From Candidatus Methylomirabilota bacterium (GTDB taxonomy: Bacteria; Methylomirabilota; Methylomirabilia; Rokubacteriales; CSP1-6): 33,716 nt of DNA. The stretch is taken from NCBI GenBank assembly GCA_035709005.1, contig DASTFB010000003.1, forward strand, positions 1-33,716, given 5' to 3'. Of this stretch, positions 10,130-12,234 are shown in pieces (the stretch's first letter is position 1; every line of letters begins with the position of its first letter). A program made the position numbers and the translations under genes. The notes under the pieces were generated by a model that was not told where the DNA came from, ran no database searches, and saw nothing but the letters and a program-made list of their open reading frames with translations.

Positions 10130-10139
10130 ATGATATCAT
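10130..10139. promoter_or_regulatory. Symmetrical -10 element between the divergent TIGR02757 and nadX genes
   Basis: The perfect palindrome ATGATATCAT gives TATCAT (5/6 to the -10 consensus) on both strands. On the plus strand TATCAT ends 8 bases before the nadX GTG at 10148. On the minus strand it ends 16 bases before the TIGR02757 ATG at 10113. Shared symmetrical -10 elements are known to drive divergent transcription. Clear -35 hexamers are absent on both sides. Confidence 0.35.
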
Positions 10140-10147
10140 GGCGCCCC

Positions 10148-10957
10148 GTGGACAAACCGCGAAACGTCGGCGTCGTGGGGCTCGGTGTCATCGGGCGTGC
10201 CGTGTGCCGCGCGCTGGACACCGGGATCGCCGGCCTCCGGCTCGCGGGCGGGCTCGCCCGCGACCGCGGTCGCGCCGAAGCCTTCCTGGCCGGGTTGGGC
10301 GGCCAGCCGCCGTTCCTGCCGCTCGACGATCTCATCGCCGCGGCCGACGTCGTGCTCGAAGCCTCCACCCAGGCGCACCTCGAGGAGATCGCCCCCAAAG
10401 CGCTGGGCGCCGGCCGCGATCTGATTGTGCTCTCCTGCGGCGGTCTGCTCGGTCACCCCGAGTGGATCGCCCTGGCCGAAGCCAACGGCGGTCGGATCTA
10501 CGTGCCCTCGGGCGCCATCGCCGGCCTCGACGGGGTCAAAGGAGCCCGGGTCGGCGCGGTGACGTCGGTGACGATGGAGACCCGCAAGCCCCCACGTGGG
10601 CTGGCCGGCGCGCCCTGGATCGAGCAACAGAAGATCGATCTCGAGGCCATCACCGCCGAGACGCTCATCTTCGAGGGGCCGGCCACGCAGGCGTGCCGCG
10701 CCTTCCCGGCCAACGTCAACGTCGTGGCCGCGCTCTCTCTCGCCGGGATCGGCCCGGACAGAACACGGATCCGGATCTACGCCGTCCCCGGCCTGACCCG
10801 GAACACCCACCGCGTGACCATCGAGGGCGAGTTCGGCCGCCTGGCCGTCGAGATCGCGAACGTTCCCTCGGAGAATCCCCGAACCGGCAAGCTCTCCGCA
10901 CTCTCCACGATCGCCCTCCTCCGCGACCTCGCCGCCCCCCTCCGCGTCGGCACATAG
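10148..10957 (+). CDS. nadX: L-aspartate dehydrogenase
   Basis: The 269-residue product matches NadX, which oxidises L-aspartate to iminoaspartate with NAD(P) and feeds NadA in NAD synthesis, replacing the oxidase NadB. The N-terminal Rossmann motif is GLGVIG at 11-16. The later segments ACRAFPANVNVVAALSLAGIG and RNTHRVTIEGEFG, with its conserved His, are typical of the C-terminal catalytic domain, and the end NPRTGKLSALSTIALLR is a family hallmark. The GTG at 10148 gives the natural NadX N-terminus. An ATG at 10130 is in frame but would lie inside the probable -10 element. nadA and nadC are not adjacent, so the gene stands alone. Some members act in poly-hydroxyalkanoate or amino acid metabolism instead. 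Confidence 0.88.
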   Translation: MDKPRNVGVVGLGVIGRAVCRALDTGIAGLRLAGGLARDRGRAEAFLAGLGGQPPFLPLDDLIAAADVVLEASTQAHLEEIAPKALGAGRDLIVLSCGGLLGHPEWIALAEANGGRIYVPSGAIAGLDGVKGARVGAVTSVTMETRKPPRGLAGAPWIEQQKIDLEAITAETLIFEGPATQACRAFPANVNVVAALSLAGIGPDRTRIRIYAVPGLTRNTHRVTIEGEFGRLAVEIANVPSENPRTGKLSALSTIALLRDLAAPLRVGT

Positions 10958-10960
10958 ACA

Positions 10961-10996
10961 GGGCACGGGCACCCGGGCTTCGCCACGCCCGTGCCC
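10961..10996. terminator. Hairpin just downstream of nadX
   Basis: Perfect 10-base arms GGGCACGGGC (10961-10970) and GCCCGTGCCC (10987-10996) enclose a 16-base loop, starting three bases after the nadX stop. There is no T-run after it, so it is either a weak intrinsic terminator or a transcript-end stabiliser. A further short hairpin with 6-base arms lies at 11073-11088. The rest of 10997-11115 shows nothing else I can name. Confidence 0.45.
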
Positions 10997-11115
10997 CGCC
11001 GAGACCACACGGGTCGGCCAGTTTCGCAAGCCGATCCGAGTCGCGACTACCGCGTTCAGCCGAGCGCCGCCCCCGCCGGCTTCGGCGGTTGCTGCTCGCT
11101 GGCCTGCCCTGATCA

Positions 11116-11250
11116 GGGGGCGTGGGGGTGGGAGATCCTGTGAGACCCGTTTCCCTGGCGTAGTGAGCCCTCGCGAATGGATGGTGAAACGCCACCCGTC
11201 CCCCGCCACCGCGCTCGTGGTCTCACAGGGTCTCCCACCCCCGCGCCCCC
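11116..11250. repeat. Long imperfect inverted repeat (32-base arms) in the nadX-trxB gap
   Basis: The arm at 11116-11147 and the arm at 11219-11250 are reverse complements except at two positions, separated by 71 bases. At both exceptions the plus-strand RNA would form a G.U pair, so a plus-strand transcript folds into an unbroken 32-pair stem, whereas a minus-strand transcript would have two A.C mismatches. The 71-base interior contains a smaller pairing, TGGCGT (11156-11161) with ACGCCA (11189-11194). It lies between convergent genes and carries no coding sequence I can support. It may be a structured RNA, a double-sided transcription barrier or a remnant of a small palindromic mobile element. 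No target-site duplication is seen. Confidence 0.6.
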
Positions 11251-11272: not shown

Positions 11273-12208
11273 CTAGTGCGGCTGGGTGGCCTCCAGGTAG
11301 CGCTCGGCCTCCAGCGCGGCCATGCACCCGCTGCCCGCAGCCGTCACGGCCTGCCGGAACGTGAAGTCCTGGACGTCGCCCGCGGCGAAGACGCCCGGCA
11401 CCGAGGTCTGGGTCGTGCCCGGCACCACCTTGACGTAGCCGTTGGGGAGCAGGTCCACCTGCCCCTGGAGGATCCGGGTGTTCGGCTCGTGGCCGATGGC
11501 GATGAAGAGCCCGTCGACGGCCCGCTCCGACCGCTCTCCGGTCTGAACATTGCGCAGGCGCACTCCGGTGACCTTGCCCTTGGCCGGATCCATCACGTCT
11601 TCCACGGCGCTGTTCCAGATGAACTCGATCTTGGGATTCTTGAGGGCGCGTTCCTGCATGATCTTGGACGCGCGCAGCGCGTCCCGCCGATGCACCACGC
11701 TGACCCTCCGCCCCAGCCGGGAGAGATAGAGCGCCTCCTCCATCGCCGAGTCACCGCCGCCCACGACCATGATGTCCTGGTCTTTGAAGAAGAACCCGTC
11801 ACAGGTGGCACAGGTCGACACGCCGCGTCCCATCAGCCCCATCTCGGCGGGCAATCCCAGCAGCTTGGCGGTAGCGCCGGTGGCGATGATGACCGTATGG
11901 CCCTCATACTCGGTATCGCCCACCTTCACCACCAGGGGCCGGCGGGTGAAATCGACCGCGGTGACGTCCTCCGCGATCATCTCGGTCCCGAACCGCTCCG
12001 CCTGCTTGCGGAAGGCTTCCATGAGGTCGGGCCCCATCAGGCCGTCGACGAAGCCGGGGTAGTTCTCGACGAGCGTGGTGAGCATCAGCTGCCCTCCGGC
12101 TTGCACGCCCGTGAAGAGGAGGGGCGCCAGGTTGGCGCGAGCCGCGTAGATGGCCGCCGTGTAGCCGGCGGGCCCCGAACCGACGATGATCACCTTGCGC
12201 ACGGTCAT
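11273..12208 (-). CDS. trxB: Thioredoxin reductase
   Basis: The 311-residue product is a low-molecular-weight thioredoxin reductase, which passes electrons from NADPH through FAD to thioredoxin. The FAD-binding motif GSGPAGY is at 10-16, the redox pair is Cys133-Ala-Thr-Cys136, the NADPH motif GGGDSA lies at 150-155, and the C-terminal FAD contact GVFAAGDVQD is present. Length and order are standard. The ATG at 12208 is chosen because a GGAGGAG ribosome-binding site lies upstream and the Rossmann strand follows at once; a start eight codons earlier is possible. It ends the leftward glycolate-oxidase series, 26 bases after the HAD gene. No thioredoxin gene is adjacent. Confidence 0.95.
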   Translation of the reverse strand: MTVRKVIIVGSGPAGYTAAIYAARANLAPLLFTGVQAGGQLMLTTLVENYPGFVDGLMGPDLMEAFRKQAERFGTEMIAEDVTAVDFTRRPLVVKVGDTEYEGHTVIIATGATAKLLGLPAEMGLMGRGVSTCATCDGFFFKDQDIMVVGGGDSAMEEALYLSRLGRRVSVVHRRDALRASKIMQERALKNPKIEFIWNSAVEDVMDPAKGKVTGVRLRNVQTGERSERAVDGLFIAIGHEPNTRILQGQVDLLPNGYVKVVPGTTQTSVPGVFAAGDVQDFTFRQAVTAAGSGCMAALEAERYLEATQPH

Positions 12209-12234
12209 GCCGTCACTCCTCCGTCTCCTCACCG

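Follow-up and report, generated by a model that had tools for sequence, protein, structure and literature searches.

A clade-restricted palindromic repeat with a conserved center and variable, mutually tracking arms in the Methylomirabilota

Introduction

What is the long inverted repeat that lies between nadX and trxB in a Candidatus Methylomirabilota genome, and what keeps its two arms complementary? An earlier note, made from the letters alone, pointed out that both mismatches between the arms are G.U in plus-strand RNA and A.C on the other strand, the pattern expected if selection keeps an RNA fold, and it offered three options: a noncoding RNA, a 3′ end element of nadX, or a nonautonomous palindromic repeat. 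Here, we consider these options for the element itself (positions 11116 to 11250 of the window, i.e., the whole 33,716-nt stretch of contig DASTFB010000003.1 that was analyzed) and for its relatives within and beyond its family, CSP1-6. Genomes (G), loci (L), and contigs (C) are numbered where they must be told apart.

The element and its neighbors

The two genes that converge on the element are nadX (aspartate dehydrogenase; positions 10130 to 10957, plus strand; NF009825, 308 bits against a cutoff of 253) and trxB (thioredoxin reductase; positions 11273 to 12232, minus strand; TIGR01292, 405 bits against a cutoff of 343), and both end in TAG. Inverted-repeat detection places a G-rich 5′ arm at 11116 to 11147 and a C-rich 3′ arm at 11219 to 11250, each 32 nt long, 94% complementary, and 71 nt apart. 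Thirty of the 32 positions pair, and the sole mismatches, T11123/G11243 and T11136/G11230, are U.G in plus-strand RNA, just as the earlier note had described them. The inverted-repeat score of 26 is the top score of the window and compares with 18 for the best of 60 dinucleotide shuffles; the 156 nt around the element fold at −101 kcal/mol, compared with a shuffle mean of −64.5 (z = −9.1), and 0 of 200 dinucleotide shuffles fold as well. A standard intrinsic terminator was considered and rejected: a hairpin near a stop codon fits, but the stem is 32 bp long, the loop is 71 nt long, and no T run follows either arm.

A separate GC-rich repeat lies just 3′ of nadX (window positions 10958 to 11078; GGGCACGGGCACCCGGGC...GCCCGTGCCC), with three other places in the same genome at 80 to 85% identity (two on C47 and one on C26). 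No inverted repeat of at least 12 nt was reported within it, and a stretch resembling it comes after a damaged copy of the element in L022/L005.

A repeat family confined to one family of genomes

Does the element occur elsewhere? In its own genome, a blastn-type search turned up fragments and one further copy with 77% identity, and blastn with the window element found relatives in only 4 of 60 searched; hits are few because the arms diverge, and a covariance model was therefore needed. The 13-mer GAGACCCGTTTCC already points to a larger set: it matches the same genome exactly at 9 places and with one mismatch at 12 more (a reversed control pattern has 1). Most of these 21 places share one plan, namely, a long near-perfect stem, GACCCGTTTCC, a central GATGGA block, CTCGTGGTC or GCGTGGTC, and the other arm.

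The search for further copies that the earlier note had proposed was then answered by a model built from 14 copies (R1), which gave 17 matches at an E value of ≤1 in the element's own genome and hits in 31 of the 57 family genomes searched. A second model (R2), built from an alignment (A3) of 56 of 59 diverse copies chosen, again found 31 of 57 genomes, with 1 to 36 matches each, and matched 0 of 38 genomes from other families of the order, class, and phylum. Within the family, only 12 of 24 genera carry the element. It is thus close to certain that the element belongs to a repeat family with many copies per genome. The sample of 102 copies used below comprises 65 of the 75 rows of the first model search, which covered 74 loci (7 same-place duplicates, 1 partial copy, and 2 antisense readings were left out), and 37 of the 38 rows of the second (1 antisense reading was left out).

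Phage and plasmid collections yielded no match, and no Rfam family reaches its gathering threshold for the element; a permissive Rfam scan returned only rows far below threshold, 15 of them microRNA hairpins (several matched on both strands) and 1 an sRNA. We found no description of the repeat in the open-licence PMC literature, which is weak evidence of absence. Exact 14-mer matches, among those listed, fall in scattered organisms; the one examined, at L110 (Rokuibacteriota), looks like chance and was rejected.

How closely is long inverted symmetry tied to this family? In 147 kb (the window plus seven stretches chosen for holding elements), the core is present in 15 of 15 inverted repeats scoring at least 16. 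Across the loci examined except L035 to L153 (chance 14-mer loci and the numbers between them), 115 distinct long inverted repeats have one of the two main core types, A or B, and 24 do not; by inspection, the latter are core types C, D, and E, a fused pair, a damaged type B copy, the G021 miniature inverted-repeat element (MITE) described below, inverted paralogous genes, and plain hairpins.

A conserved core inside arms of variable sequence

The copies have in common the blocks GACCCGTTYCC, GATGGA, and CGTGGTC inside a long stem. The core is about 70 to 80 nt long and is enclosed by the stem, whose arms differ in sequence in every copy and nevertheless pair. The window element is of type A (71 to 74 nt, GAGACC to CTCGTGG); type B is 78 to 81 nt long. 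On the plus strand of the window, the 5′ block GAGACCCGTTTCCC occupies positions 11142 to 11155 (supported by the 13-mer counts and near-invariant columns in the 56 copies), the central block GATGGTGAAACGC, seen in the alignments, occupies positions 11180 to 11192 and is the type A form of GATGGAAACGC (type B has GATGGAGCCCAGCC), and the 3′ block CTCGTGGTCTC occupies positions 11214 to 11224, with CGTGGT near-invariant in the 56-copy alignment. Types D (GACCCGTG...GCGTGGTC) and E are otherwise different from these, and the stem-loop junction GACC-CGT...CGTGGTC is common to at least these four types.

Neither RNAalifold nor mutual information, applied to 85 type B copies, revealed a convincing helix beyond the outer stem. 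The core is conserved as sequence blocks, and an internal helix has no convincing covariation support. Of the earlier description of the interior, the 71 nt between the arms stand, and the second small stem finds no covariation support across copies, type B being the type tested and the window element being type A. A coding core, suggested by the frequent reading ATG GAG CCC AGC CGC, was rejected given one-base length differences among copies.

A further feature was seen beside the core of many type B copies, in which alignment columns 16 to 22 with 116 to 122 hold tandem A.G/G.A mismatches (CGAG against CGAG); together with an unpaired A in the 5′ arm, these resemble a sheared GA motif.

Position and orientation at gene ends

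Tandem genes flank 60 of the 102 copies, convergent genes 30, and divergent genes 4; 3 copies lie inside a called gene, and 5 are undecided. Context was taken from a codon-usage gene caller trained on the window, and the 3 in-gene copies are possibly call errors. Cores are commonly tens of bases from a stop codon, and 90 of 102 copies sit between tandem or convergent genes. Where the flanking genes are in tandem, the core reads with them in 22 cases and against them in 38. The suggestion of a 3′ end element is therefore borne out as to position, just 3′ of genes, but not as to a fixed sense.

Elements also often occur as back-to-back pairs in opposite orientations with their 5′ sides facing (L200:1471-2038, L207, L177/L208, L202, L266, L015, and L018). 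In G028 (L286), an orthologous pair of inverted elements is fused into one palindrome.

Pairing is kept, with a strand bias

The stem has a median of 47 pairs in the 102 copies (quartiles, 43 and 57), and its 5′ arm is G-rich, with 1,473 G-C versus 741 C-G among the Watson-Crick pairs of 65 copies. In the 56-copy alignment, both partners have changed at 22 of 25 stem pairs, and 0 of 500 shuffles reach the observed covariation; every measure drops when the register is slid. Since the stem was defined from the same 56 copies, these shuffle and slide controls outweigh the raw fraction of paired cells (77.4%). Covariation analysis, which the earlier note had named as a check, thus finds substitutions that keep the pairing; with homologues present as well, the observation withstands the refutation that the note had laid out.

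Is it as RNA that the pairing matters? In the 40 pairs nearest the core of the 102 copies, scored symmetrically, G.U outnumbers A.C by 93 to 46 (P = 8e-5), counting aligned pair positions only; 42 copies have more G.U, and 12 have more A.C. Because the model itself could favor G.U, 41 further copies were collected from 39 stretches of the blastn list, with cores detected by motif alone and no pairing-aware scoring. The excess is repeated there (39 versus 19, P = 0.012; 20 copies versus 5), which means that the bias is no product of the model; it follows the strand of the core itself. Broken down by gene context, with the first four pairs omitted, the G.U:A.C counts are 24:12 for sense cores, 18:12 for antisense cores, and 31:10 between convergent genes. 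The argument from G.U mismatches thus survives as a tendency and fails as an exclusive pattern: A.C makes up a third of transition mismatches, so selection on plus-strand RNA is not the whole story. The excess could reflect weakly selected folding of the core-sense strand, as RNA or as single-stranded DNA (ssDNA), or it could reflect more C-to-T change (C deamination) on an exposed or transcribed core-sense strand.

Orthologous sites: empty sites, paired changes, and flips

Comparisons at orthologous sites reveal both presence/absence differences and coordinated change. The L171 element of G066 is present in G068, where the flanks are 96% identical, and absent in G065, G028, and G064; the G064 site, compared with G066 and G008, provides a further presence/absence difference. 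Empty-site junctions are too diverged for target-site duplications to be read. Between G066 and G068, the arms carry matched changes on both sides and an insertion shared by both arms, and four further pairs from these genomes show similar patterns (L250/L262 is less clean). As a separate observation, one region of G066 and G068 (L171 and L221) is 96% identical, compared with 79 to 89% at other shared loci; recent transfer or bin contamination may be involved (the contamination listed for G068 is 9%).

Over 10 orthologous comparisons, 290 pairs are unchanged and 69 have changed on both sides, 50 of them from one Watson-Crick pair to another and 19 otherwise, while single changes comprise 15 G.U, 8 A.C, and 46 others, the last inflated to some extent by alignment slips in G runs; 10 pairs are gapped. 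Double Watson-Crick changes therefore number 50, versus 23 single G.U or A.C intermediates. Arms are not clearly faster than cores in orthologous pairs (identities of 0.58 to 0.90 for arms and 0.73 to 0.87 for cores), and the idea that arms always evolve faster is not supported.

The core can also turn around. At L200:8926, G064 has a type B core, G068 and G063 have a type D core, and G065 has the type D core reversed; judged by eye, the outer arms in G063, G064, and G065 appear to be homologous. The type D cores of these relatives are homologous, and relative to G063 and G068, that of G065 is flipped. G024 and G060 likewise have cores in opposite orientations at one shared site, through either a flip or two independent insertions.

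We inspected the nadX-trxB locus itself in 15 relatives and could read the intergenic gap in 11 of them. The element of G031 is decayed, and in G012, of the same genus, the gap holds a plain GC-rich hairpin; type E elements, which share the junction of other cores, are present in G005 and G026. The gap has no element in G024, G078, G001, or G011, and none was seen in G013 (partly N), G030, or G023.

Palindromes that extend into genes

How far does the symmetry reach? In 22 of the 102 copies, inverted similarity farther than 45 bp from the core is above the 99th percentile of a null distribution, with about 1 such copy expected. The null pairs flanks with those of other copies; its maximum is 40, no copy lies above that maximum, and its few high values probably come from orthologous pairings, which makes it conservative. 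A separate MITE accounts for L204, L205, and perhaps L187 and L213 among the 22. In at least 12 copies (L172, L173, L181, L186, L206, L240, L253, L254, L258, L259, L261, and L265), one side of the inverted image comprises at least 35 nt of called coding sequence; the 12 are not independent, as they include orthologues (L240, L265, and apparently L186). In at least 12 of 102 copies, then, a degenerate inverted copy of the end of the neighboring host gene lies across the element. L171/L175 have a shorter image of a gene end within the stem itself, and that gene end is host sequence, present in the empty-site relatives.

What maintains the arms?

Of the three options in the earlier note, the nonautonomous palindromic repeat is the best supported. 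On balance, we favor the view that the window element is one copy of a family-restricted, nonautonomous dispersed palindromic repeat with arms homogenized and extended by template switching during replication. After arrival, the arms would be kept identical by DNA polymerase switching templates between the inverted repeats, and the same process would lengthen the arms into the flank; it homogenizes arms and could also invert the spacer. Both arm homogenization and spacer inversion are given as outcomes of template switching between inverted repeats in excerpts of PMC8604942. Coordinated arm changes together with spacer inversion among relatives, as seen in these alignments, are what arms maintained in this way would be expected to show. 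More tentatively, we posit in addition a strand-specific influence on the core-sense strand that may underlie the surplus of G.U mismatches relative to A.C. That template switching maintains the arms is our best reading, held with modest confidence, and several observations count against it: the spacer of 70 to 80 nt is longer than the short spacers said to favor template switching in the same excerpts (PMC8604942); 19 of 69 double changes are not Watson-Crick on both sides, and there are 46 other single changes; the G.U excess is not predicted by template switching alone; arms are not clearly faster than cores; and in G021, a different MITE supplies part of the long arms.

Could the arms instead be held together by selection on a functional structured RNA (a small RNA, a 3′ UTR stabilizer, or a bidirectional terminator), with copies spread by duplication? 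The G.U excess, also in the independently collected copies, the strong stem covariation, the invariant core blocks, and the placement at gene 3′ ends all speak for such an RNA. Yet a core orientation that is not fixed relative to genes, absence of the element at orthologous sites, the lack of a covariation-backed helix inside the core, the A.C third of transition mismatches, window arms free of a T run, and the Rfam result make us regard it as rather unlikely. Quite unlikely, in our judgment, is a mobile element that targets hairpins, in which core and inner arms insert into the loops of preexisting hairpins (terminators or palindromic MITEs) and the old hairpin supplies the outer arms. Its best cases are G021, where the element is centered in a CTAG-flanked MITE that is also found empty or otherwise filled; G003, where the empty site is a hairpin (GCCGCTGA-CCGGC-TCAGCGGC) whose two arms recur as the outermost arms of the G024 element; and the plain GC-rich hairpin of G012 at the nadX-trxB position where the window and G031 have the element. 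However, the G021 copies may equally well go back to a single nested insertion that the MITE then multiplied, a center deletion could explain the G003 scar just as well, the empty site in G065 and G028 has no clear hairpin, and inner arms differ between copies too.

A related and still more doubtful idea makes the core the mobile unit: a strand-specific folded cassette (ssDNA or RNA) whose GACC-CGT...CGTGGTC junction would be recognized by a putative recombinase or reverse transcriptase and which would be moved, flipped, and exchanged inside gene-end hairpins, with arms rebuilt at each site. If true, the repeat would represent a hairpin-loop cassette system of a new class. A chance palindrome or assembly artifact deserves practically no credence, being refuted by the copies: 17 matches in the same genome, the same plan in 31 genomes, and a score above 60 of 60 shuffles.

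Relation to known repeats

Where does the repeat stand among known systems? Like the REP/BIME repeats, which excerpts of PMC3733652 describe as palindromic, intergenic, present in many copies, located mostly 3′ of genes between tandem or convergent genes, and often paired in opposite orientations, it is palindromic, intergenic, multicopy, 3′ of genes, and often in opposite pairs. Unlike REPs, given there as 20 to 40 bp with a GTAG or CGTC tag, it spans about 130 to 250 bp and is conserved in its apical core but not in its arms, and no foot sequence common to its copies was seen. The Y1 transposase domain (Y1_Tnp, PF01797; RAYT) has 0 occurrences in the window's genome and is found in 3 of 31 carriers of the family versus 8 of 26 noncarriers; a REP/RAYT identity was rejected because the window's genome and 28 of 31 carriers lack the domain, and a Y1 transposase as the mover is not supported.

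MITEs are generally conserved at their ends. The repeat resembles MITEs (e.g., those of Coxiella and Porphyromonas) in being short, nonautonomous, and dispersed, with inverted arms and presence/absence at orthologous sites; it differs in that its ends are variable and its center is conserved. No parent transposase was found, nor a target duplication at empty-site junctions too diverged to show one. A standard MITE was rejected since terminal arms differ between copies in most genomes, and the shared ends in G021 belong to the separate CTAG-flanked MITE. The bcr1 repeats of the Bacillus cereus group are reportedly mobile repeats of about 150 bp with a proposed RNA fold and compensatory changes, and our repeat is likened to them by description only; variable arms around a conserved core are not a known feature of bcr1. 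The patterns of arm homogenization and spacer inversion are like those of quasipalindrome template switching, insofar as excerpts of PMC8604942 treat it (see also PMC7202029), but the quasipalindromes described there have short repeats and short spacers, whereas here stems of about 47 pairs enclose spacers of 70 to 80 nt in a repeat family.

We therefore describe the element as a new clade-restricted variant of bacterial dispersed palindromic repeats, with a conserved center and concerted arms. Bacterial palindromic repeats are usually recognized by conserved ends; here, the ends vary, the arms track each other, and the center is conserved. Because a genome may hold up to tens of copies and orthologues can be compared at many divergences, the family is a large natural data set that could separate selection on an RNA fold from mutational homogenization by template switching, measure spacer inversion, and show how palindromes grow into neighboring genes. 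It is a natural test case for the joint evolution of hairpin halves and a warning that compensatory changes alone are no proof of a functional RNA.

Other palindromes at the same kind of site

In G021, the element with its inner arms sits at the center of a MITE of about 100 bp with CTAG and ATTCATGAACG ends; this MITE is palindromic and distinct from the element, and it accounts for part of the long arms seen in that genome. The MITE is also found empty (L299 and L319) or filled with another hairpin (L312 and L316). Over its examples (L299, L304, L310, L312, L316, and L319), it has CTAG ends with ATTCATGAACG nearby, often right at a TAG stop codon. Exact matches to its motif number 23 in G021, 0 for the control, 0 in G000, 0 in G012, and 2 in G064. 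A CTAG target as a general rule was rejected, as it occurs only in G021 and is explained by the separate MITE. Finally, hairpin type C (L298:641-797, L309, L312, and L316) occurs in two genera, with a shared core, GTGGGACCCC...GGTGACGGAGCC, inside long variable arms, and constitutes a separate family with the same design of conserved center and variable arms.
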